Shown piece by piece: positions 1,056 to 10,449 of a stretch of 10,652 nucleotides of DNA. This DNA is from Cytophagaceae bacterium. Lineage in GTDB: Bacteria; Bacteroidota; Bacteroidia; Cytophagales; Spirosomataceae. The stretch is from contig CANHKE010000019.1 of assembly GCA_947461155.1 (NCBI GenBank), positions 1-10,652 on the forward strand, read 5' to 3'. Under the pieces are notes generated by a model. The model was given only the letters and a program-made list of their open reading frames with translations, did not search any database and was not told where the DNA came from. A program made the position numbers and the translations under genes. The first letter of the stretch is position 1, and each line of letters starts with the position of its first letter.

Positions 1056-2390
1056 ATGGCATTACCACAATCAGATCATGATGCAATAAAGCTAGATTCA
1101 TCCGAAAAAAGCAATTACACCATTCCTTTAATTCTTGTAACAAGTTTATTTTTTCTGTGGGGATTGGCCAATAGTTTAAATGGAACATTAGTCAAGCAAT
1201 TTCAAACCGCATTAGACTTGCAGCGCTGGCAAGCCAATATCGTCGAAACAGCCTTTTATGCTGGTTATTTCGTGATGGCGCTACCCGCGGGGATTGTCAT
1301 GCGGAAATACGGTTATAAAATGGGAATCCTGTTAGGATTAATTTTATACGCAGCTGGCGCATTTTTATTCTATCCGGCGGCAGATGTACGCGCTTATTCA
1401 TTTTTCTTGGTAGCATTATTCATGATTGCCAGCGGCATTGCATTTCTTGAAACAGCCGCTAACTTATATGTTACTGTATTGGGTGATCCAGCCAAAGGCG
1501 ATTACCGATTAAACTTTGCACAGTCATTCAATGGGATGAGTATCATTTTAGGGCCTGTTATCGGTGGATTTTTTATTTTTTCGGATAAAGAATATTCAAG
1601 TGAGGCGCTTGCAGCAATGCCCATCGCTGAATCAGAAGCCATTCGAGCAGCACATGCTGCCTCCGTACAAACACCCTATTTGCTAATCGGTTGCATCGTA
1701 GCTTTTGTAGCCGTTTTATTTGCGGTAACGAAAATGCCTGAATTAAAGTCGGCAGAACAAAAAGCATCCAATATCTCTATTCGAGATTTACTGAAAAATA
1801 AACATTTGGTACTGGGAATCATTGCACAATTTCTGAATGTAGGAGCCCAAGTAACGCTATGGGGTAATTTTGTCGATTTAAAACTCGATTATGCACCGAA
1901 TACGAATTTATGGATTGTTGAAAAGATCTATCAAGTAACAGCCAATATGTCGGCCACGCAAATGGCCAGTTTCCATGCATCCTTTGCCTTTATTTTATTT
2001 CTAATTGGTCGGTTCTTAGGTACCTTTCTAATGGGCAAATACAAATCGAATCAAATACTTGGTTTATACGCCGTTGGTGCTGTAATCTCACTAATCGTTG
2101 CCATGACAGGCGGAGGAATTATCGCCGTAGTAGCACTTATGATGGTCTATTTTTGCCAATCCATTATGTTCCCGACCATCTTTGCCCTTTCTTGTAAAAA
2201 CCTAGGGGAAGGATCCAAATTGGCTTCTTCATTAATTATTATGTCGATTGTGGGCGGATCCATCATCCCGCCGATTGCGGCGTCATTATTTAAAGTTAAC
2301 ACCAACATGGCATTGGCGATTCCTTTGTTTTGCTTTAGTTACATCGTATTTTTTGCTTATCGCGGATTTAGAGTAAAGGAAAATGAATAG
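1056..2390 (+). CDS. fucP: L-fucose:H+ symporter family permease (MFS, FucP)
   Basis: This 444-residue, highly hydrophobic protein has about twelve membrane segments and close resemblance to E. coli FucP. Shared stretches include SLFFLWGLAN (30-39), the loop AGIVMRKYGYK (78-88) after the second helix, LETAAN (131-136) and VQTPYLL. It would import L-fucose, or a related 6-deoxy sugar, with a proton across the inner membrane. Glu132 aligns with E. coli Glu135, one of two acidic residues important for transport. The other, Asp46, aligns with Gly43 here (codon 1182-1184, GGA), with identical spacing between the two sites. It is the first gene of the operon and overlaps the mutarotase gene by 8 nt. 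The ATG at 1056 gives a short hydrophilic N-terminus like that of E. coli FucP. The family is near certain; fucose as the substrate is inferred from the downstream genes. Confidence 0.9.
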   Translation: MALPQSDHDAIKLDSSEKSNYTIPLILVTSLFFLWGLANSLNGTLVKQFQTALDLQRWQANIVETAFYAGYFVMALPAGIVMRKYGYKMGILLGLILYAAGAFLFYPAADVRAYSFFLVALFMIASGIAFLETAANLYVTVLGDPAKGDYRLNFAQSFNGMSIILGPVIGGFFIFSDKEYSSEALAAMPIAESEAIRAAHAASVQTPYLLIGCIVAFVAVLFAVTKMPELKSAEQKASNISIRDLLKNKHLVLGIIAQFLNVGAQVTLWGNFVDLKLDYAPNTNLWIVEKIYQVTANMSATQMASFHASFAFILFLIGRFLGTFLMGKYKSNQILGLYAVGAVISLIVAMTGGGIIAVVALMMVYFCQSIMFPTIFALSCKNLGEGSKLASSLIIMSIVGGSIIPPIAASLFKVNTNMALAIPLFCFSYIVFFAYRGFRVKENE

Positions 2391-2715
2391 GTATATTTTA
2401 ATTTTAGATTTAGTGGATGAAGAAGCGTCCATCAAACAGTATGAAGCATATCATGAGCGAATTCCACAAGAAATCGAAAAGAGTATACGAGATGCTGGAA
2501 TCACCTCGATGGAAATTTTTCGGTATGCCAATCGACTAATCATGGAGATGGTCACAGATGAAAAATTTTCATTTGAAGCCAAGGCCAAAGCAGATCAGGA
2601 AAGTGAAGCCGTACAAGCCTGGGAAAATTTAATGAATCAATTTCAACAACGGATCCCTGGATCCAAACCCACAGAAAAATGGGTATTAACAGAACGAATT
2701 TTTAGCCTTAATTAA
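2383..2715 (+). CDS. RhaM-type (L-rhamnose mutarotase family) sugar mutarotase, probably for L-fucose
   Basis: This 110-residue cytoplasmic protein has the size of L-rhamnose mutarotase (COG3254, about 104 residues). It carries the Tyr-x3-His pair (Tyr20, His24 in YEAYHERIP) that corresponds to the conserved Tyr18/His22 of E. coli RhaM. A later aromatic patch, AWENLMNQF (79-87), also fits the family. The family interconverts the alpha and beta anomers of 6-deoxy-hexoses. Here the neighbours suggest it supplies the correct fucopyranose anomer to the dehydrogenase. Its ATG lies inside the end of fucP (8-nt overlap), suggesting translational coupling, and the next gene starts 4 nt after its stop. 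It is not a FucU/RbsD-type mutarotase. The sequence alone does not separate fucose from rhamnose use. Confidence 0.85.
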   Translation: MNRYILILDLVDEEASIKQYEAYHERIPQEIEKSIRDAGITSMEIFRYANRLIMEMVTDEKFSFEAKAKADQESEAVQAWENLMNQFQQRIPGSKPTEKWVLTERIFSLN

Positions 2716-2719
2716 ACTT

Positions 2720-4366
2720 ATGTCACGTACTTTTTTACAAATTAATCCATCCGATAATTTACTAGTTGCCCTACAGGATTTAAAAGCAGGAACAATTATC
2801 CAGCACGATGGAAACGAAATAACCCTTGTTGATGACATCGCTGCAAAGCACAAGTTTACCACAGAGGCGATAGCGAAAGATGGAAATGCATATATGTATG
2901 GCGTTTTAGTAGGCCATGCTAGTCAAGATATTCCCAAAGGAGGATTAATCCATACCTTTAATCTACACCATGCTTCTCAAGATTTTGCGGGTAAACTAAA
3001 GGATTACACATGGACAAGTCCAGACGTATCCAAATTCCAAAATCGTACATTTAACGGCTATCATCGGGGAGATGGACAAGTAGGGACTCAAAATTATTGG
3101 TTAGTTATCCCACTTGTATTTTGTGAAAATCGGAATATTGAATTGTTGAAAAATGCATTTATTCAAGGCTTAGGTTTTCAAAAAAATGATTCGGTGACGG
3201 ATCAAGTGATTCGCTTACGCAATCAATTTGTAGCTGGTGAAAAATTAAGTTTAGGCGCTAGTTCTTCGGAAGCAATTATTTCCAAAAGTCCATTATTTCC
3301 GAACGTCGACGGAATCAAGTTTTTAACACATGAAAGTGGTTGCGGTGAAAACAAAGATGATTCGGAAAATTTGTGCGCGCTATTAGCTGGATATTGCGTC
3401 AATCCGAATGTTGGCGGTATAACCATTTTAAGTTTAGGATGTCAGCATTCCCAAATAGCCGTTTTTAAACAAAAATTAAGCGAAAAAGATCCGAGCTTCA
3501 ATAAGCCTATGTACATCTTTGAACAACAACAAGATGAGGGTAGTGGTGTAGAAAAACTTTTGAATGATGTGGTTATTAAAACCTTTGAAGGCTTAATTGA
3601 AATCAATCAAATCGATCGGAAACCAGCACCCTTATCCGCCTTGCGCTTAGGCGTGAAATGTGGCGGATCGGATGGATTTTCAGGGATTTCGGCGAATCCT
3701 GCCATTGGGCATACGGCAGATTTACTGGTAGGACTTGGAGGAACCGTCATGATTGCGGAATTCCCTGAACTATGTGGTGTAGAGCAAGAATTACAAAATA
3801 GGTCAGTTAATGCTGAAGTGGCAGACAATTTTGGGAAAATGATGCGGGAATACGCGAAACGTGCTGCGGCAGTGGGCGCTGGATTTGACATGAATCCATC
3901 TCCGGGAAATATTAAAGATGGCCTAATCACCGATGCCATCAAATCCGCAGGAGCTGCTAAAAAAGCAGGTTCATCACCCATCGTGGATGCCTTAGGCTAT
4001 GGTCAATACGCAACTAAAAAAGGTTTAAACTTGGTCTGTACACCAGGAAATGATGTATTAGCGACGACAGGTATGGCAGGTGCAGGAGCAACAGTACAGT
4101 TATTTACAACTGGATTAGGTACGCCTACTGGAAATCCAATTAGTCCAATGGTTAAATTAGCCACCAACACGCGTTTAGCGGAAAAATTACCTGAAATTAT
4201 TGACATCGATTGTGGAGCCATTATTCGAGGGGAGAAATCAGTGGAGCAAATGGGTGAAGAGGTACTTGAATATATCATCAAACTGGCTTCTGGTGAAATA
4301 ACCACCAAAGCGATGGATTTGGGACAAGATGACTTTATGTTCTGGAGACGAGGAGTGTCACTTTAG
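2720..4366 (+). CDS. SAF-UxaA (altronate dehydratase) family enzyme, predicted L-fuconate dehydratase
   Basis: The 548-residue protein has an N-terminal SAF domain (about 1-95, ending near GGLIHTFNLHH) fused to the UxaA/GarD catalytic region (about 110-548). Typical family blocks are visible: GYHRGDGQVGTQNYW (113-127), HESGCGE (204-210), LSLGCQHSQ (238-246), KCGGSDGFSGISANP (313-327), EFPELCGVE (347-355), TPGND (441-445) and the C-terminal WRRGVSL. Known members dehydrate hexonates and hexarates such as altronate and galactarate. The usual enolase-superfamily FucD is absent here, and this is the only dehydratase among fucose-pathway genes, so I infer it converts L-fuconate to 2-keto-3-deoxy-L-fuconate. 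It is longer than E. coli UxaA (about 495) and shows no frameshift. A stretch of repeats follows its stop. Family call firm; substrate inferred from context. Confidence 0.88.
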   Translation: MSRTFLQINPSDNLLVALQDLKAGTIIQHDGNEITLVDDIAAKHKFTTEAIAKDGNAYMYGVLVGHASQDIPKGGLIHTFNLHHASQDFAGKLKDYTWTSPDVSKFQNRTFNGYHRGDGQVGTQNYWLVIPLVFCENRNIELLKNAFIQGLGFQKNDSVTDQVIRLRNQFVAGEKLSLGASSSEAIISKSPLFPNVDGIKFLTHESGCGENKDDSENLCALLAGYCVNPNVGGITILSLGCQHSQIAVFKQKLSEKDPSFNKPMYIFEQQQDEGSGVEKLLNDVVIKTFEGLIEINQIDRKPAPLSALRLGVKCGGSDGFSGISANPAIGHTADLLVGLGGTVMIAEFPELCGVEQELQNRSVNAEVADNFGKMMREYAKRAAAVGAGFDMNPSPGNIKDGLITDAIKSAGAAKKAGSSPIVDALGYGQYATKKGLNLVCTPGNDVLATTGMAGAGATVQLFTTGLGTPTGNPISPMVKLATNTRLAEKLPEIIDIDCGAIIRGEKSVEQMGEEVLEYIIKLASGEITTKAMDLGQDDFMFWRRGVSL

Positions 4367-4422
4367 ACGTTGGACGTTAGACATTGGACATTGTACATTA
4401 GTCGTTAGACATTAGACAATTG
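4367..4422. repeat. 7-bp tandem repeat array, consensus ACRTTRG
   Basis: Immediately after the stop of the UxaA-like gene come seven consecutive 7-bp units (4367-4415). Units 1-3 are ACGTTGG, ACGTTAG and ACATTGG; units 4-7 vary at a few positions, one beginning with T. A degenerate eighth unit, ACAATTG, follows (4416-4422). The period is read directly from the sequence. I recall similar heptamer arrays in intergenic regions of Bacteroidota, but cannot verify that here. It sits in the only sizeable gap of the operon, is non-coding, and its function is unknown. Confidence 0.85.
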
Positions 4423-4427
4423 TGTAG

Positions 4428-4447
4428 AGACGCGATACTTCGCGTCT
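4428..4447. repeat. Perfect 8-bp stem / 4-nt loop palindrome (REP-like)
   Basis: AGACGCGA (4428-4435) pairs exactly with TCGCGTCT (4440-4447) around the loop TACT. The stem is GC-rich against an AT-rich background. No run of T follows (ATTAAATTTAAAC instead), so it does not look like an intrinsic terminator. It may be a scattered REP-type element, or a hairpin that protects or attenuates the operon mRNA. It lies 15 nt before the start codon of the next gene. Confidence 0.75.
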
Positions 4448-4462
4448 ATTAAATTTAAACAT

Positions 4463-5206
4463 ATGCTGTTCTCATTAAAAGGTAAAAAAGTAGTTGTCAC
4501 AGGGGGTTGTTCCGGAATTGGAAAATCAATCGCGTTAACCTTCATGCAACAAGGGGCAGAAGTACATGTCATTGATTTACAGGAATCGGTTGAGCCGCTG
4601 CCTGTACAAATCAACTTCCATCAAGCAGATATTACAAACCTGGAAGTAGTCGAACAAATTGCCACGCGATTAACTACTATCGACATTCTAGTAAATAACG
4701 CAGGTATACCGCAAATCGGCAATCTGGAAAAAACCAGTCCTGCCGATTTTCAACGCATATTTGATGTCAATGTAAAAGGTGCTTATCATTGTATGTACGC
4801 ATTTATTCCACATATGGTCAAGCAAGGTTCAGGCGTTATTTTGAACATGGCCTCCGTTGCTGCATCCGTAGGAATTCCAGATCGATTCGGCTATTCCATG
4901 ACCAAAGGAGCTATTAGATCCATGACTCAATCCGTCGCGAAAGATTACATCCAACAAGGCATTCGGTGCAACTGTATTTCACCCGGACGCGTACATACCC
5001 CGTTCGTGGATGGATTTATCGCTAAAAATTACCCAGACAATCAAGCCGAAATGTTTGAAAAACTGTCCAAAACCCAACCCTTGGGTCGAATGGCGAAACC
5101 GAATGAAATTGCCAATTTAGCCTTATATTTATGTTCCGATGAAGCCGCTTTTATCACCGGTTGTGATTATCCAATTGACGGTGGATTCATTTATCTAAAC
5201 AACTAA
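4463..5206 (+). CDS. SDR oxidoreductase, predicted 2-keto-3-deoxy-L-fuconate 4-dehydrogenase
   Basis: This is a classical short-chain dehydrogenase of 247 residues: TGGCSGIG (13-20) for the cofactor, NNAG (78-81), and catalytic Ser131, Tyr144 and Lys148 in YSMTK. Asp38 at the end of the second strand (VIDLQ) predicts NAD over NADP. The stretch DYIQQGIRCNCISPGRVHTP (161-180) closely resembles the BDH2/DHRS6-like branch, which as I recall includes characterised 2-keto-3-deoxy-L-fuconate dehydrogenases. It would oxidise the C4 hydroxyl of 2-keto-3-deoxy-L-fuconate to give the 2,4-diketo acid, the substrate of the FAH enzyme two genes downstream. It starts 15 nt after a palindrome and ends 5 nt before the next gene. 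Family certain; substrate well supported by context. A 3-hydroxybutyrate dehydrogenase-like activity is the main alternative. Confidence 0.85.
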   Translation: MLFSLKGKKVVVTGGCSGIGKSIALTFMQQGAEVHVIDLQESVEPLPVQINFHQADITNLEVVEQIATRLTTIDILVNNAGIPQIGNLEKTSPADFQRIFDVNVKGAYHCMYAFIPHMVKQGSGVILNMASVAASVGIPDRFGYSMTKGAIRSMTQSVAKDYIQQGIRCNCISPGRVHTPFVDGFIAKNYPDNQAEMFEKLSKTQPLGRMAKPNEIANLALYLCSDEAAFITGCDYPIDGGFIYLNN

Positions 5207-5211
5207 AACCT

Positions 5212-5889
5212 ATGAAAACGAAAATTTTAAGCATCCTGCTCTTCATTTCCTTGAGCGTTACTTCTTTTACTACGCTAGATAACCCTACACGTATCGTGTT
5301 TTTCGGGGATTCCATCACCCAAGCGGGTGTAGGTAAAACAGGATATATCACCAAAATGGCTGAAATGCTGGGAACACTCGGACTAGCAAGTAAATATGAA
5401 TTAATCGGCGCTGGTATTGGCGGAAATAAGATTTATGATTTATACCTACGTCACGAAGAGGATGTCATCGCGAAAAAGCCCAATATCGTTATCATATATG
5501 TGGGTATTAATGACGTTTGGCATAAAACAACTTCGCGTACTGGAACGGATGCCGACAAATTCGAAAGATTCTATTCTGCTTTAATAAAGCGACTACAAAA
5601 AGCTAATATTCAGGTAGTTATATGCACGCCAACTGTGATTGGCGAAAAATTTGATGCCACGAATGAGAACGATGGTGACCTAAATGCGTATTCGAATATC
5701 ATTCGAAAAATTGCGGCCGACAATCAATGTAAATTAATTGATTTACGGAAGTCATTCTTAGCGTACGAAGAGAAAAACAACATTGAAAATAAAGCATCAG
5801 GTATATTAACGACAGATCGCGTACATTTAAATGAAGCAGGAAATCAGTTTTTGGCTGAGACCATGTGGGAAACAATTAAAACTTTATAG
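5212..5889 (+). CDS. Secreted SGNH/GDSL-family hydrolase (esterase or lipase type)
   Basis: The 225-residue protein starts with a signal peptide (KTK, then a hydrophobic stretch through about residue 20), so it acts in the periplasm or outside the cell. SGNH blocks are all present: GDSI with nucleophile Ser34 (32-35), the Gly in GAGIGGN (67-72), Asn100 in VGIND, and the Asp202-x2-His205 pair in DRVHLN. These enzymes remove acyl or acetyl groups from sugars and lipids. Here a natural inference is deacetylation of a fucose-containing glycan before sugar uptake, but nothing in the sequence proves the substrate. It sits 5 nt after the SDR and 3 nt before the FAH gene, so it is co-transcribed with otherwise cytoplasmic catabolic enzymes. 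Confidence 0.87.
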   Translation: MKTKILSILLFISLSVTSFTTLDNPTRIVFFGDSITQAGVGKTGYITKMAEMLGTLGLASKYELIGAGIGGNKIYDLYLRHEEDVIAKKPNIVIIYVGINDVWHKTTSRTGTDADKFERFYSALIKRLQKANIQVVICTPTVIGEKFDATNENDGDLNAYSNIIRKIAADNQCKLIDLRKSFLAYEEKNNIENKASGILTTDRVHLNEAGNQFLAETMWETIKTL

Positions 5890-5892
5890 TTC

Positions 5893-6741
5893 ATGCAATT
5901 AGTACGAATCGGAGCATTTGAGCAAGAAAAACCCGCTCTATTGATTAATGGGGATTATTTTGATGTATCTGCCCATGTGGTCGATTACAATGAAGCCTTT
6001 TTTGCCCAAGATGGCCTTGCTAAATTAGCACATGTTGTCGCAACAAAGGATTTACCAAAAATTGAGAAACCTGCGCGAATCGGATCTTGTGTCGCAAGAC
6101 CCTCTAAAATCATTTGCGTGGGCCTAAATTACGCAGATCATGCGCGTGAAACAGGAGCAGAGATTCCGAGTGAACCCATCCTGTTTTTCAAATCCACAAC
6201 GGCATTATCAGGGCCAAATGATGCGGTGATCATTCCAAGAGGGTCAACTAAAACCGATTGGGAAGTTGAACTAGCCATTGTCATTGGCAAAAAAGCGCAA
6301 TATGTAACTGAATCAGAAGCATACGACTATGTGGCTGGTTATTGTTTACACAATGATTATTCAGAACGCGAATACCAACTGGAACGTGGGGGGAATTGGT
6401 CCAAAGGAAAAGGTTGCGATACCTTTGCGCCATTAGGTCCAGCATTAGTCACAAAAGATGAAATTTCCGATGTGCATAACCTAAACATGTGGCTGGACGT
6501 CAATGGAAAGCGTTTTCAAACCTCAAATACGAACCAACTCATTTTCAATGTACCGCAAGTCGTTTCCTATATTTCCCAATTCATGACACTGTTACCTGGT
6601 GATGTCATTTCAACGGGCACACCACATGGCGTAGGATTAGGATTCAAACCGCCGATCTACTTACAAGCTGGAGACGTTGTTACGTTAGGCATGGACGGAT
6701 TAGGTGAACAAAAACAACAAGCCGTTGCCTATTCAAAATGA
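5893..6741 (+). CDS. FAH-family hydrolase, predicted 2,4-diketo-3-deoxy-L-fuconate hydrolase
   Basis: The 282-residue protein has the fumarylacetoacetate hydrolase fold. A variable N-terminal part (1-65) precedes the core with CVGLNYADHA (75-84). The metal-binding acidic residues are Glu124 and Glu126 in DWEVELAIVIG and Asp155 in HNDYSER. KGKGCDTFAPLGP (171-183) and LPGDVISTGTPHGVG (234-248) complete the fingerprint. Family members use Mg2+ or Mn2+ to cleave C-C bonds of acylpyruvate-like acids. In this operon it would split 2,4-diketo-3-deoxy-L-fuconate to pyruvate and L-lactate, ending the pathway without an aldolase. Its stop overlaps the next start by 4 nt (ATGA). No signal peptide, so cytoplasmic. 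The family is certain; the exact substrate is inferred from neighbours, with the equivalent rhamnose-derived diketo acid as the alternative. Confidence 0.9.
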   Translation: MQLVRIGAFEQEKPALLINGDYFDVSAHVVDYNEAFFAQDGLAKLAHVVATKDLPKIEKPARIGSCVARPSKIICVGLNYADHARETGAEIPSEPILFFKSTTALSGPNDAVIIPRGSTKTDWEVELAIVIGKKAQYVTESEAYDYVAGYCLHNDYSEREYQLERGGNWSKGKGCDTFAPLGPALVTKDEISDVHNLNMWLDVNGKRFQTSNTNQLIFNVPQVVSYISQFMTLLPGDVISTGTPHGVGLGFKPPIYLQAGDVVTLGMDGLGEQKQQAVAYSK

Positions 6742-7556
6742 TTGATTCGCACCAACATTTCTGGAATTACGACGAAGAGCGAGATGCATGGATAACACCC
6801 GATATGTCGATCATTCGTGCTGATTTTTACCCAGATGAGGAATTCTTTCGATCAAAAGGAATTGAAGGTTGCGTCGCCGTGCAAGCCGCGTCATCTGAAG
6901 AAGAAACTTTGTTTTTATTAGCGCTGGCTGAACAATCTAATTTTATTCAAGGTGTTGTGGGTTGGGTCGATTTGCAACAAGCCAACATTGAAGACCGATT
7001 AGCCTATTTCTCCCAATTTGAAACACTAAAAGGATTTAGGCACGTTGTCCAAGGAGAAAAAGATCCTGATTTTTTAGCAAAGAAGGAATTTAGAAGAGGG
7101 GTTCGAGCGTTAGATGCTTTTGATTATACCTACGATTTACTGATTTTACCACATCAATTAGCGGCAGGTATTCAATTCTGTGAATCAATGGACCAAAAAA
7201 TTGTATTGGACCATCTAGCTAAACCACCCATTAAATCGGCCGATTTAACGCGTTGGAAAAAAGAAATGCAAGCGTTCAAAACCTTAGACCATGTATCGGC
7301 TAAAATATCCGGCCTAGTCACTGAGGCAGATTGGCAACATTGGACGCCTATCCAAATAAATGAAGTGATTGATTGTGCGCTTGAGGTTTTTGGTACAGAT
7401 CGTTTGCTATTTGGCACCGATTATCCAGTCGTGAAAGTGGCATCAGATGTAGATAAATGGCTCGAAGTCTATACTTTTAGTATTCATTCGTTGAGTAAAA
7501 CAGAACAAGAAAAATTGAATCACTTGAATTGCACCCACTTCTATACATTAGACTAA
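6738..7556 (+). CDS. Amidohydrolase-superfamily lactonase, predicted L-fuconolactonase
   Basis: The 272-residue protein is a COG3618-type amidohydrolase with IDSHQHFW at its start (Asp3, His5, His7). GFRHVVQ (99-105), LDHLAKPP (157-164), KISGL (189-193) and LLFGTDYPV (223-231, acidic Asp228) follow in family order. Characterised relatives open sugar lactones such as L-fucono- and L-rhamnono-1,4/1,5-lactone. It would hydrolyse the lactone made by the dehydrogenase encoded just downstream, giving L-fuconate for the UxaA-like dehydratase. It overlaps the FAH gene by 4 nt and is followed after 1 nt by the dehydrogenase start, so coupling is tight. No signal peptide; cytoplasmic. All expected motif residues are present. 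Confidence 0.87.
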   Translation: MIDSHQHFWNYDEERDAWITPDMSIIRADFYPDEEFFRSKGIEGCVAVQAASSEEETLFLLALAEQSNFIQGVVGWVDLQQANIEDRLAYFSQFETLKGFRHVVQGEKDPDFLAKKEFRRGVRALDAFDYTYDLLILPHQLAAGIQFCESMDQKIVLDHLAKPPIKSADLTRWKKEMQAFKTLDHVSAKISGLVTEADWQHWTPIQINEVIDCALEVFGTDRLLFGTDYPVVKVASDVDKWLEVYTFSIHSLSKTEQEKLNHLNCTHFYTLD

Positions 7557-7557
7557 T

Positions 7558-8337
7558 ATGAATTTAGGACTCAAAGAAAAAGTCATTATAGTTACAGGTG
7601 GCGCCAAAGGAATCGGTGCCGGAATTAGTCAAACGCTCGGTTTGGAATCCGCTATGGTTGTCATTGTGGGTCGAAACGAAAAAGACAATCAATCCTGCAT
7701 CGAAATAATTCAAGCAACAGGAGGCCAAGCCTTTTCATTTGTGGCTGAATTAACGAACCCAGAAGCATGTACGCGCGTCGTAGCGGAAATTGTCAACATG
7801 TTTGGCCGCATCGATGGATTAGTGAACAATGCTGGGGTCAATGACGGGGTAGGACTCGAAAATGGGACCTATGAGCGCTTTATGCAATCCTTACATGCCA
7901 ACTTAATTCATTATTATTTATTGGCACAAGCCTGTTTGCCTTATCTAAAAAAATCAAAAGGTTCGATCGTAAATATCGGATCGAAAACGGCAGAAACAGG
8001 GCAGGGAGGTACTTCTGCCTATGCCGCGGCCAATGGAGGAAGAAATGCCTTGACGCGCGAATGGGCAGTAGAATTGTTGCCATTCCACATTCGGGTTAAT
8101 TCTGTTATTGTAGCGGAATGTTATACACCCCTCTATGAAAAATGGATTCAAACTTTGCCAAATCCAACAGAGAAAAAAGCTGAAATAGAGGCTAAAATAC
8201 CACTAGGCCAACGAATGACTACGTCTGATGAAATAGGTGCCATGGTTGCTTTCTTACTTTCGCCGAAATCGAGCCATACAACAGGCCAATTAATTCATGT
8301 GGATGGTGGATATGTTCATCTTGATCGTGCCTTATGA
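7558..8337 (+). CDS. SDR oxidoreductase, predicted L-fucose dehydrogenase (catalytic Lys replaced by Asn)
   Basis: This 259-residue SDR resembles characterised bacterial L-fucose dehydrogenases in diagnostic places: NNAGVNDGVGL (90-100), LIHYY (116-120), SKTAETGQGGTSAY (142-155), LTREWAVEL (165-173), TPLYEKWI (190-197) and the C-terminal HTTG...VDGGYVHLDRAL. It would oxidise L-fucose at C1 to L-fuconolactone. Cofactor motif TGGAKGIG (13-20) has Lys17, and the second strand ends in Gly38-Arg39, which leans toward NADP. Ser142 and Tyr155 are in place, but the residue four after the Tyr is Asn159 (codon AAT at 8032-8034), not the nearly universal Lys of YxxxK. The reading frame is intact, so this is a substitution, not a frameshift. 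It overlaps the next gene by 4 nt. The role is well supported; the active-site change is the caveat. Confidence 0.86.
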   Translation: MNLGLKEKVIIVTGGAKGIGAGISQTLGLESAMVVIVGRNEKDNQSCIEIIQATGGQAFSFVAELTNPEACTRVVAEIVNMFGRIDGLVNNAGVNDGVGLENGTYERFMQSLHANLIHYYLLAQACLPYLKKSKGSIVNIGSKTAETGQGGTSAYAAANGGRNALTREWAVELLPFHIRVNSVIVAECYTPLYEKWIQTLPNPTEKKAEIEAKIPLGQRMTTSDEIGAMVAFLLSPKSSHTTGQLIHVDGGYVHLDRAL

Positions 8338-9389
8338 TTCCTGAAGCCAATTTAGTTAGTCCTGGTTTACTTGTTGACCCTCAACTTGTTCAAGCCAATA
8401 TTGATTGGATTTTGAACCAAGTAGCCAATAATCCTCAACGGCTACGGCCACACATTAAGACGCACAAAACACGTGAAGTCAATCAAATGTTATTGGCATC
8501 AGGCATTTTTAAATTCAAAGCTGCCACGATTTCTGAAGCCGAATTACTTGCATTAGACGAAGCACCTGATGTTTTATTATCGATGCAACCCACGGGAACA
8601 ACGCTCACTCGATTCATCGAACTACAAAAAAAATACCCAAAAACATCGTTTGCATGCCTTTTAGACGACCGAGTAGCTGCTAGCCAGTTGGCGGCAGTCT
8701 GCACAAACCAACGCGTCTTTGTAGATTTAAACATGGGCATGAACCGAACCGGAATCCGTCCTGAAGAAGCATTGCCGCTTATCCAATACATCCAAGCTAC
8801 ATCTTCCTTACGATTAGTTGGCTTACATGCCTATGACGGTCACATTCGCGACGTTCACATGGAGGATCGTAAAACCCATGTACAAAAAGACTTTAAGTCA
8901 TTTTTTGAATTAATAGATCAATTGGCTGCTGATTTGGAATTAGTGGTCGGAGGAACACCCAGTTTTTTAGTACATCATCAAAATCCAAACTTTGTTTGTA
9001 GTCCAGGTACCTTTGTATTTTTCGATACGGGTTATGCGAAATTATACCCCAAAGAAAGTATTCAATTAGCTGTTCAAATAATAGGACGCATCATTTCAAA
9101 GCCAACCAACCACACCATCTGCATGGACGTTGGCCATAAATCAGTAGCGCCTGAAAATGCCATTGAAAATCGGGTGACTTTTATCGATCATCCAGCCTGG
9201 CAATTAGTAAGTCAGAGTGAGGAACATGGCATTGTGGAAGTAGGAGACTCTACGCAATATGCAATAGGTGATGTGATTCGCATGTATCCGTATCACATTT
9301 GTCCGACCGTAGCTTTGCATCAATCTTTACAGGTAACAGACGGATCCACCTGGAAAGTCTTAGCCAGAGACCGAAAAATAACCATTTAA
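8334..9389 (+). CDS. Fold-III PLP enzyme, D-threonine aldolase / D-serine dehydratase family
   Basis: This 351-residue protein has the alanine-racemase-type N-terminal barrel and the DSD1-like C-terminal domain. The signature RPHIKTHKT (38-46) holds the likely PLP lysine, Lys42. MGMNRTG (134-140), GLHAYDGH (163-170), GGTPS (206-210) and GTFVFFDTGY (225-234) follow. His321 and Cys323 in PYHICPTVAL match the metal site of D-serine dehydratases and D-threonine aldolases. Known family members cleave D-threonine or other D-3-hydroxy amino acids to glycine plus an aldehyde, or deaminate D-serine. No such step exists in fucose breakdown, so its place in the operon is unexplained. It overlaps the dehydrogenase gene by 4 nt and is followed after 1 nt by the dipeptidase, suggesting those two form a pair. 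Family firm; reaction not decided. Confidence 0.85.
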   Translation: MIPEANLVSPGLLVDPQLVQANIDWILNQVANNPQRLRPHIKTHKTREVNQMLLASGIFKFKAATISEAELLALDEAPDVLLSMQPTGTTLTRFIELQKKYPKTSFACLLDDRVAASQLAAVCTNQRVFVDLNMGMNRTGIRPEEALPLIQYIQATSSLRLVGLHAYDGHIRDVHMEDRKTHVQKDFKSFFELIDQLAADLELVVGGTPSFLVHHQNPNFVCSPGTFVFFDTGYAKLYPKESIQLAVQIIGRIISKPTNHTICMDVGHKSVAPENAIENRVTFIDHPAWQLVSQSEEHGIVEVGDSTQYAIGDVIRMYPYHICPTVALHQSLQVTDGSTWKVLARDRKITI

Positions 9390-9390
9390 G

Positions 9391-10449
9391 ATGTTTATCG
9401 TAGACGCACATTTAGATTTAAGCATGAATGCCTTGGAATGGAATCGTGATTTACGATCCTCCATTCAAGAGATAAATGCGCGTGAAAAAGGGTTAAACGA
9501 CAAACCAGACCGCGGACTCGCAACTGTTTCCTTAGAAGAATTACGCAAAGGCAATATCGGATTAGTCGTAGCCACACAAATCGCGCGCTATGTGGATCGG
9601 AATTCAACGCTCCCTGGCTGGAACTCACCCGAACAGGCGTGGGCGCAAACGCAAGGTCAATTAGCCTATTATAAAGCACTTGAACGAAGCGGAGATCTAA
9701 CACCGATTCGGAATTTACCCGAATTATATACGCATTTGGAGAAATGGCCAAACGATCAAAAGACAATCGGATATATCTTAAGTTTAGAGGGAGCGGATTC
9801 CATTGTTTCATTGGAATATTTGGAAATCGCCCATGAAGAAGGATTGCGCGCATTAGGACCCGCACATTACGGACCGGGACGTTATGCGCAAGGAACAAAT
9901 GCTACAGGGGGTATCGGTCCAAAAGGGCGTGAATTATTGCATAAAATGCAGGAATTGAATATAATTCTCGATGCTACCCACCTATGTGACGATAGTTTTG
10001 ATGAGGCCATGGAACATTTTAGTGGATCCGTGTGGGCTAGCCATCATAATTGTAGGGCTTTAGTCGATCACAACCGGCAATTCACCGACGATCAATTTAG
10101 AGAATTAATTCGTCGCGGAGCGGTTATCGGCCTGCCGATGGATGCTTGGATGATGGTTCCCAATTGGGAACGCGGAAAATCAACGCCAAAATCCATGGGT
10201 GTTACCTTAAACATCATGATTGATCATTTGACGCATATTTGTGAGCTAGCGGGAAATACCGATCATGTAGGAATGGGAACGGATTTAGATGGTGGATTTG
10301 GGAAGGAACAATGTCCGTATGATTTGGAGACCATTGCCGACTTGCAAAAAATCCCTGATTTATTGAGCGCGAGAGGATTTTCTGAAGCTGACATCAAAAA
10401 AATCTGTCATCAAAACTGGCTAAATTTTTTAGAAAAAGCCTGGGCTTAA
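9391..10449 (+). CDS. M19-family membrane dipeptidase-like metallohydrolase (cytoplasmic form)
   Basis: The 352-residue protein has the renal/membrane dipeptidase (M19) zinc site: His7 and Asp9 in DAHLDL, bridging Glu133 in SLEGAD, His197 in DATHL, His218 in SHHNCRAL, and Asp298 in GTDLDGG. There is no signal peptide or lipid attachment motif, so unlike the mammalian enzyme it should be cytoplasmic. Family members hydrolyse dipeptides, often with a D-residue at the C-terminus, and some act on other amide or lactone substrates. Together with the upstream PLP enzyme it could release and then break down a D-amino acid. It is the last plus-strand gene, and its stop overlaps the stop of the converging SDR gene. 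Family call firm; substrate and link to fucose unknown. Confidence 0.87.
   Translation: MFIVDAHLDLSMNALEWNRDLRSSIQEINAREKGLNDKPDRGLATVSLEELRKGNIGLVVATQIARYVDRNSTLPGWNSPEQAWAQTQGQLAYYKALERSGDLTPIRNLPELYTHLEKWPNDQKTIGYILSLEGADSIVSLEYLEIAHEEGLRALGPAHYGPGRYAQGTNATGGIGPKGRELLHKMQELNIILDATHLCDDSFDEAMEHFSGSVWASHHNCRALVDHNRQFTDDQFRELIRRGAVIGLPMDAWMMVPNWERGKSTPKSMGVTLNIMIDHLTHICELAGNTDHVGMGTDLDGGFGKEQCPYDLETIADLQKIPDLLSARGFSEADIKKICHQNWLNFLEKAWA

Follow-up and report, generated by a model that had tools for sequence, protein, structure and literature searches.

We asked which enzyme dehydrates L-fuconate in the putative L-fucose operon at positions 1056-8337 of our window, that is, of the whole analysed stretch of 10,652 nucleotides, whose source organism is a freshwater-type Bacteroidota. 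The place of the enolase-superfamily dehydratase FucD appears to be taken there by a UxaA/GarD-family protein, and these two groups are unrelated in fold. All genes of the operon lie on the + strand at the positions given in the preliminary description, which reading frames, families and strand bear out. They are closely packed: neighbours overlap by 4-8 bases or stand 1-5 bases apart, and only uxaA is followed by a longer gap, of 96 bases. Two further genes follow 3' of the operon in the same direction (8334-10449); the preliminary description had left them out.

The sugar is indicated by two proteins. The FucP-type L-fucose:H+ symporter (1056-2390) reaches 361.7 bits with TIGR00885 (cut-off 280.4), and 323 bits with NF007524, under the cut-off of 427. 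The L-fucose dehydrogenase, a short-chain dehydrogenase (SDR, 7558-8337), passes NF052481 with 396.4 bits (cut-off 300). With FucP and the dehydrogenase over curated cut-offs, the assignment of the operon to oxidative L-fucose breakdown is well supported, and the earlier reading as fucose rather than rhamnose stands. For the amidohydrolase (6738-7556), a proposed L-fucono-1,5-lactonase, the sole solved relative is 4dlf, and the best model is that of L-fucono-1,5-lactonase (NF052480, 254.9 bits, under the cut-off of 400). The second SDR (4463-5206), a proposed L-2-keto-3-deoxyfuconate 4-dehydrogenase, is closest to 2ag5 (SDR member 6), followed by 8xwk, 8y4j and 8y11; 8Y11 is the Herbaspirillum L-KDF dehydrogenase and 2AG5 is BDH2 (PMC13406643). 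The FAH-family hydrolase (5893-6741), a proposed L-2,4-diketo-3-deoxyfuconate hydrolase, scores 366.8 bits with NF053535 (under the cut-off of 500) and has as its nearest structure 8gsr, an L-2,4-diketo-3-deoxyrhamnonate hydrolase. We see that the best solved matches of these three proteins are enzymes of the L-fucose route or near it.

The window set is complete for a route ending with a dehydrogenase and a hydrolase (transporter, dehydrogenase, lactonase, KDF dehydrogenase and FAH hydrolase), the lactonase and the FAH hydrolase being assigned via their nearest solved structures and lying under the NCBIfam cut-offs. The claim that each step of the pathway has a candidate holds, judging by family and solved-structure matches. 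Within the operon there is also a GDSL-family hydrolase (5212-5889; PF13472), which may be accessory, perhaps a deacetylase. Its N-terminus, judged by eye, resembles a signal peptide, and the gene is retained within the operon of Aquirufa- and Flectobacillus-type relatives; the position of this conserved gene was absent from the preliminary description.

Another gene encodes a RhaM-family mutarotase (2383-2715; PF05336, 86.9 bits), a probable L-fucose mutarotase, for which searches of NCBIfam and of solved structures returned no match. It had been called ambiguous between the two sugars. Its family is indeed of the RhaM type, which, together with the similarity of the FAH protein to the rhamnose-route hydrolase 8gsr, would fit an L-rhamnose operon; however, the same family is found beside FucP and an annotated L-fuconate dehydratase (FucD) in Rahnella and Duffyella clusters. 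Since FucP and the L-fucose dehydrogenase exceed their curated cut-offs, and the top lactonase model, albeit under its cut-off, is L-fucono-1,5-lactonase with 4dlf as the only lactonase match, a rhamnose operon has next to no probability.

The protein in the FucD place (2720-4366) contains the SAF, GD_AH_second and GD_AH_C domains (PF08666, PF04295 and PF20629), and its earlier description as a SAF-UxaA protein is confirmed by all three. It is encoded by one frame of 548 codons and is not split into a small SAF subunit and a large subunit as in the heteromeric L-fuconate dehydratase. Both by sequence and by model its best solved relative is GarD (6u7l). The predicted model has a mean pLDDT of 75.9, with several stretches bearing conserved residues below pLDDT 50, and its top fold match is 6u7l (E = 2.7e-36, TM 0.83 by target), so that the protein is predicted to have the GarD fold. 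The identity is 33% to E. coli UxaA and 26% to GarD across the structural match; the equivalog model of the galactarate dehydratase GarD (TIGR03248) gives 285.4 bits, short of the cut-off of 730.85, and E. coli UxaA scores 275.3. Cys208, Cys241 and Cys314 are present in 90 of 90 alignment rows and Cys135 in 83 of 90. We propose that these four residues form a putative iron site, equating them through their conservation with the iron-site cysteines that, along with a dehydration mechanism, are proposed for a Herbaspirillum member of the UxaA/GarD family in PMC6336799.

From gene content, family membership, conservation and distribution we infer the activities and the dehydratase substrate, and a full L-fucose route with the UxaA/GarD protein in place of FucD is very probable. 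FucP would import L-fucose and the mutarotase would equilibrate its anomers. The SDR at 7558 would oxidise L-fucose to L-fucono-1,5-lactone, which the amidohydrolase at 6738 would open. The single-chain UxaA/GarD-family protein would then dehydrate L-fuconate to 2-keto-3-deoxy-L-fuconate, replacing the enolase-superfamily enzyme. As in the mechanism given for the Herbaspirillum protein, the alpha proton of a (2S,3R) aldonate would be abstracted and beta-elimination would follow; L-fuconate, D-arabinonate and D-altronate are grouped as (2S,3R) acids in PMC10079672. Finally, the SDR at 4463 would oxidise this product at C4, and the FAH hydrolase at 5893 would cleave the result into pyruvate and L-lactate.

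With the Rahnella copy of FucD as a probe, no FucD-like frame was found in the window or in 45 related loci at E ≤ 1e-3, and the own genome, which is 71.6% complete, has no FucD match at E ≤ 1e-20; its enolase-superfamily matches are an enolase, an epimerase/racemase-like protein, a MenC-like protein and an epimerase-like fragment. In a census of 296 Bacteroidota genomes, with FucD and UxaA scored at >500 bits, L-fucose dehydrogenase occurs in 43 genomes and FucD in 11, every one among those 43. As for the 32 dehydrogenase genomes without FucD, 30 have a single-chain UxaA above 500 bits and two a distant UxaA-family protein. Within 20 kb of the 47 dehydrogenase loci, we see UxaA at 14, FucD at 10, both at none and neither at 23; in eight fucose loci without UxaA or FucD, whose frames were listed and judged by eye, no third kind of dehydratase was recognised. 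The co-occurrence proposed earlier as a check is borne out, within limits. UxaA adjoins at least two fucose genes in 16 of the 32 and lies beside uronate genes or in no known context in the other 16 (two of which, G150 and G190, have a FucD-like protein, 40-43% identical, on a separate contig), and UxaA of this kind is also found in 26 of the 253 genomes without L-fucose dehydrogenase.

Potentially, the protein could be a plain D-altronate dehydratase lodged in the fucose operon, with an unseen enzyme dehydrating L-fuconate. The 16 genomes with UxaA away from fucose genes fit this, as do the incompleteness of the own genome and the names of the 120 listed homologues, which, where given, are altronate dehydratase, altronate hydrolase or UxaA family hydrolase. 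On the other hand, UxaA and FucD have complementary distributions, and uxaA is surrounded by fucose genes, with no uxaB or uxaC inside the window. This arrangement is retained: at least two more genes of the operon stand next to uxaA in 43 of the 45 loci, a sample biased by its collection through close similarity to the own UxaA protein. The exceptions are L036, where the contig stops after uxaA, and L040, which has the lactonase alone. Across loci found through uxaA the operon is thus conserved more than by chance, and we give the plain altronate reading very little credence.

A broader reading, which overlaps with ours, is that UxaA acts on both L-fuconate and D-altronate and that its gene is merely housed in the fucose operon. 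A second, altronate role is possible, as all 12 relatives searched have UxaC; in eight of them, all near relatives, the only UxaA-family gene is the one inside the fucose operon. The sole mannitol-dehydrogenase-family gene of these eight argues against dual use, since it resembles the Flectobacillus-type copies next to UxuA (64-68%) more than those of the uxaBAC cluster (55-57%), whereas both kinds are closer to E. coli UxaB (33-35%) than to UxuB (23-28%), which favours it. As references for sorting the two kinds of copies, E. coli UxaB and UxuB gave no separation.

A plain column comparison of fucose-linked with uronate-linked copies brought up residue 243, two positions past the conserved Cys241. 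It is His in the window protein and in 22 of 24 fucose-linked census copies, whereas 36 of 37 uronate-linked ones have Asn; 18 further copies follow the same division (9/9 His fucose-linked, 9/9 Asn uronate-linked). E. coli UxaA has Asn and GarD has Lys. Position 313 is weaker, with Lys in 19/24 fucose-linked versus 5/37 uronate-linked copies. Scoring convergent subgroup columns by the least of three contrasts yielded mainly variable positions and was abandoned. The His243 mark is not strict, because Asn occurs within the same fucose operon in 9 of 44 close relatives; together with the two census fucose-linked copies that have Asn243, as in altronate enzymes, this speaks for dual use. In genomes carrying both copies, such as Flectobacillus, however, the fucose-linked UxaA has His and the uronate-linked one Asn, and on balance we consider dual use rather unlikely. 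The fucose-linked UxaAs do not form one clade; an independent-pairs test at residue 243 comprised 3 pairs only (mean 2.5 the same way, 0 opposed), at which number significance is unreachable. We tentatively suggest that in Bacteroidota single-chain altronate-type dehydratases may have been recruited for L-fuconate on several occasions. Residue 243 may then recognise the substrate at its far end, where His would fit L-fuconate, Asn D-altronate and Lys galactarate.

In another reading C5 is epimerised first, as happens when L-galactonate is used: the pair of a zinc alcohol dehydrogenase and a UxaB-like reductase would yield an altronate-type acid, on which UxaA would then act. Clusters with a zinc alcohol dehydrogenase, a UxaB-like gene, UxaA, lactonase and L-fucose dehydrogenase do exist (G154, G182, G134; such a cluster is also found in Sphingomonas), and PMC5507952 describes Halomonas loci in which fuconate genes stand together with lgoD, uxaA and uxaB. 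Both of these dehydrogenases are absent from the window operon, whereas the KDF-dehydrogenase-like SDR and the FAH hydrolase of the direct route are present, which makes the detour very improbable here.

What would direct dehydration of L-fuconate by UxaA mean for annotation? Since the listed homologues, where named, are called altronate dehydratase, altronate hydrolase or UxaA family hydrolase, fucose use in Bacteroidota of this kind may be overlooked or taken for uronate use. A 2017 reconstruction (PMC5507952) left a gap for FucD in Algoriphagus marincola HL-49, a member of the Bacteroidetes, and single-chain UxaA is a candidate for such gaps. A UxaA-family replacement of FucD has reported precedents in Paraburkholderia (heteromeric, PMC6336799) and in Campylobacter (uxaA', PMC7685106), on which the preliminary description was silent. 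Apparently new are the fused single-chain form in the FucD slot, which extends the heteromeric replacement, its distribution in Bacteroidota and the mark at residue 243, which suggests that a single residue may govern which substrate these dehydratases prefer.

Compared with known systems, the protein shares its domains, the four conserved cysteines and the GarD-like model fold with E. coli UxaA (D-altronate dehydratase) and GarD (galactarate dehydratase), but differs in sequence, in residue 243 and in having no uronate neighbours. Xanthomonas FucD (XCC4069) takes the same step within otherwise homologous operons, but is an enolase-superfamily enzyme. The Paraburkholderia mimosarum L-fuconate dehydratase studied in 2024 is reportedly of the UxaA type. 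PMC13406643 cites a 2024 paper on this novel enzyme but sets the enzyme beside the enolase-type ENOSF1, so that its UxaA membership is tentative. In PMC6336799 a UxaA/GarD protein of P. mimosarum (A19U_RS0100650/655) is assigned to L-fuconate by gene context in a non-phosphorylating L-fucose cluster; it has two subunits, whereas the window protein is one chain. Four split proteins in our material (L133, L219, L220, L221) have Ser at the His243 position, and one of them is 29% identical over 332 columns. The Campylobacter jejuni fuc operon (uxaA', FucP, FucX, Cj0487, Cj0488) likewise brings together a UxaA-type dehydratase, FucP, a dehydrogenase, a hydrolase and a mutarotase; in PMC7685106 and PMC6946681 the dehydratase role of uxaA' is predicted only. 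By its gene list the C. jejuni operon resembles ours, but where the window has the FAH hydrolase, a synthase resembling DapA and one more dehydrogenase are listed.

The genome to which the window belongs (1.72 Mb in 305 contigs, 71.6% complete; the window is contig 19) carries a run of ten forward-strand genes, spanning 1056-10449, which all abut or overlap except for a gap of 96 bases after uxaA (2720..4366, 548 residues). By family scan these are FucP (361.7 bits, curated cut-off 280.4), a RhaM-type mutarotase, the UxaA/GarD-type dehydratase, an SDR (4463), a GDSL hydrolase (5212-5889), an FAH hydrolase (366.8 bits, below the cut-off of 500 of a rhamnonate-route model), an amidohydrolase (lactonase; 254.9 bits, below the cut-off of 400), an L-fucose dehydrogenase (396.4 bits, curated cut-off 300) and, within 8334-10449, a protein that combines alanine-racemase and serine-dehydratase domains, followed by an M19 dipeptidase. 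Among solved structures, the sole match of the lactonase is 4dlf, which we take to be the Burkholderia L-fucono-1,5-lactonase; the FAH protein matches 8gsr best, and the SDR is nearest to 2ag5, then 8xwk, 8y4j and 8y11. A passage of PMC13406643 gives 8Y11 as the Herbaspirillum dehydrogenase of 2-keto-3-deoxy-L-fuconate (L-KDF) and 2AG5 as BDH2.

The preliminary description had assigned the operon to L-fucose. This assignment is well supported by FucP and the L-fucose dehydrogenase, both above curated thresholds, and by the mutarotase family, members of which in Rahnella and Duffyella also adjoin FucP and a gene annotated as L-fuconate dehydratase. GH29-type fucosidase domains are present in 13/13 genomes searched and the C-terminal domain of L-fucose isomerase in five of them, the own genome not being among the five. 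The loci nearest to the window belong to Cytophagaceae MAGs and Aquirufa, and the named proteins in the best 120 of at least 8000 scored homologues, several of them from Aquirufa, bear one of the names altronate hydrolase, altronate dehydratase and UxaA family hydrolase. The GDSL gene, whose product may deacetylate fucose, holds its place between the KDF-dehydrogenase-like SDR gene and the FAH gene in operons of the Aquirufa and Flectobacillus types and has no match in loci L039-L043. The last two genes stay 3' of the fucose dehydrogenase in Aquirufa-type loci with sufficient flank (in one, L015, the M19 gene is inverted) and were not seen in Flectobacillus-type loci.

The usual enzyme of L-fuconate dehydration, the step proposed for the window UxaA, is the enolase-superfamily dehydratase FucD. 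A Rahnella FucD probe gave zero matches at E<=1e-20 in the own genome (71.6% complete) and zero at E<=1e-3 in the window or any of 45 related loci. The absence of an enolase-type FucD from the window, noted at the outset, stands. Searching the own genome for the enolase superfamily gave enolase itself, one protein resembling DgcA/epimerase, one resembling MenC and a fragment resembling an epimerase; those scanned against NCBIfam all stayed below its cut-offs.

In a sample of 296 Bacteroidota genomes, UxaA and FucD were counted above 500 bits. For FucD this cut was chosen post hoc with the scores known: E<=1e-20 is reached in 22 genomes, and beneath the 11 counted there are matches of 331-357 bits (G150, G190; second ones in G158, G203) and others below 100 bits. 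L-fucose dehydrogenase is found in 43 genomes, which include 11/11 of those with FucD (Fisher p = 1.8e-10) and 34 of the 60 with UxaA (p = 3.1e-20); the 43 divide into UxaA only (30), FucD only (7), both (4) and neither (2), with p = 3e-4 for avoidance, kinship being ignored in all three values. Each of the two genomes with neither has a distant UxaA. UxaA does accompany L-fucose dehydrogenase where FucD is missing, as the preliminary description suggested checking, in 30 of 32 FucD-less genomes above 500 bits and as a distant form in the other 2, but it adjoins at least two fucose genes in 16 of the 32. These 16 comprise 13 clusters of the direct type, 2 with a UxaB-like gene and 1 split form (G135). 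In the remaining 16, UxaA lies by uronate genes (12) or its context is not known (4), and several carry a fucose cluster in which no dehydratase was recognised. Such clusters (SDR, FAH, lactonase, dehydrogenase; 15-19 kb fetched) were seen in L156, L158-L161 and L164-L167, from G150, G111, G194, G292, G076, G118, G206, G021 and G202. Within 20 kb of 47 dehydrogenase loci there is UxaA at 14 (including the distant, split UxaA of G135), FucD at 10, both at 0 and neither at 23; in G286 FucD lies 32 kb away.

To place the fucose-linked copies we used a tree of 90 UxaA-family rows: the 79 census places minus 4 scoring below 200 bits, 12 of the 45 contig loci (those found with the window UxaA), a Runella plasmid copy, E. 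coli UxaA and GarD. A row was labelled fucose-linked if at least two of dehydrogenase, lactonase, SDR, FAH and mutarotase adjoin it with no UxaB, and uronate-linked if UxaB or UxaC adjoins and the first rule does not apply; for 11 contig loci the label was assigned manually. The window UxaA falls within a supported group in which 12 of the 13 rows are fucose-linked, and over the whole tree the label requires 8 changes, 6 forced by supported branches. This scatter implies that UxaA would have been recruited to fucose use repeatedly, or that its use would have switched back and forth. A single fucose clade was rejected (p-AU 5e-41) in a 40-row subset with 23 of the 24 fucose-linked rows (a long-branch row omitted) and 16 uronate rows, a test made with the first tree already known.

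Residue 243, two after the conserved Cys241, was singled out post hoc from 548 columns in a comparison of 24 fucose-linked with 37 uronate-linked single-chain rows, and is His in 22/24 of the former (as in the window) and Asn in 36/37 of the latter. It is Asn in E. coli UxaA and in 7/7 E. coli-like Bacteroidota rows, and Lys in GarD. In 20 unused loci (16 from 14 new genomes, 4 second copies), where context and residue were printed together and thus not blind, we find His243 in 9/9 fucose-linked copies (8/8 without L215, which is fucose-linked only when FucP beside the dehydrogenase counts) and Asn243 in 9/9 uronate-linked ones; a cluster with FucDH and a UxaB-like gene and a locus without context both have Asn. 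Genomes with one copy per context (G033, G253, G025, G170, G222, G606, G645) have His in the fucose copy and Asn in the uronate copy. Furthermore, the dehydrogenase is present in 14/14 census genomes with a His copy, versus 34/60 UxaA genomes (p = 8e-5, kinship ignored). His243 is strongly associated with the fucose context but not required, because Asn is found in the fucose copies of G099 and G214 and in 9/44 full-length UxaAs of the contig loci (0/9 among the 12 in the tree), with operon order kept as far as the contigs extend. The nine, all close relatives, are L022, L024, L028-L032, L047 and L048. The uronate-labelled copy of G111 has His; its label depends on a 33% UxaB-like neighbour and the genome has a dehydratase-less fucose cluster, which, read after the fact, could explain it. 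Other genomes with such clusters have Asn copies only.

In the predicted model, residue 243 lies in the loop joining strand 231-239 to helix 245-256, and we infer that it contacts the distal end of the substrate. Lys243, as in GarD, occurs in the UxaA of a Runella rosea plasmid (L056, 1500-3152) and of L062 (G190); the Runella copy adjoins an NADP aldehyde dehydrogenase, which suggests galactarate or a similar acid.

As to altronate, we compared the own genome with 12 relatives (one a MAG; completeness of the 12 unstated). UxaC is found in 12/13, the own genome being the exception. The own genome and its eight nearest relatives have one UxaA-family gene each, and L033, L034, L035 (Flectobacillus type) and L044 (Pseudarcicella) have two, the second adjoining mannitol dehydrogenase and, in 3/4, UxaC. 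In the eight relatives the lone mannitol dehydrogenase shares 64-68% identity with those Flectobacillus-type copies that lie near UxuA and 55-57% with those in uxaBAC; for the own genome the values are 67-68% and 53-54%. Because this sole enzyme groups with the copies near UxuA, the near relatives seem to lack a reductase dedicated to forming altronate, a reading from orthology and not proof, since both kinds are closer to E. coli UxaB than to UxuB.

A second cluster type combines a UxaB-like reductase, UxaA and L-fucose dehydrogenase with no FAH match (L064, L076, L088 and L209, from G154, G182, G134 and G487; residue 243 Asn, Asn, His and Asn); the first three also carry a zinc ADH and a lactonase. 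It may serve L-galactose handling or C5 epimerisation of fuconate. Split UxaA pairs are found in Sphingomonas beside FucP, SDR, amidohydrolase and mutarotase, and in Ponticoccus with mutarotase, SDR and FAH. The fucose cluster of G135 (L133, 8892-10435) has split small and large subunits resembling these proteobacterial pairs, with Ser at the position equivalent to 243. A mobilizable-typed plasmid of Rufibacter tibetensis (L052) has a fucose cluster with a fucosidase and no dehydratase among the genes of its incomplete gene table.

As seen in parts of the earlier literature, the Campylobacter operon is listed with uxaA' (PMC7685106) and its dehydratase given as Cj0483 (PMC6946681); Algoriphagus marincola HL-49 (Bacteroidetes) is said to miss FucD, with the dehydrogenase substituted, and Halomonas loci to combine fuconate and L-galactonate genes (PMC5507952); a passage on Maribacter mentions a fuconate dehydratase gene, its family not given there (PMC8072126). 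Passages of PMC13406643 and PMC12263773 cite a 2024 article describing a novel L-fuconate dehydratase, which the former sets alongside the enolase-type ENOSF1. In the open literature searched, mostly at title or listing level, we found no description of the fused Bacteroidota form in the fucose slot. The central proposal, a UxaA-family enzyme in the L-fuconate dehydratase slot, is sound as annotation and has precedent in Paraburkholderia and Campylobacter. Apparently new here are the fused form in the FucD slot, its phylum-wide complementarity with FucD and the residue-243 association. The UxaA/GarD L-fuconate dehydratase of Paraburkholderia mimosarum, assigned by context in the passage available (PMC6336799), is heteromeric, whereas the window UxaA is a fused single chain.
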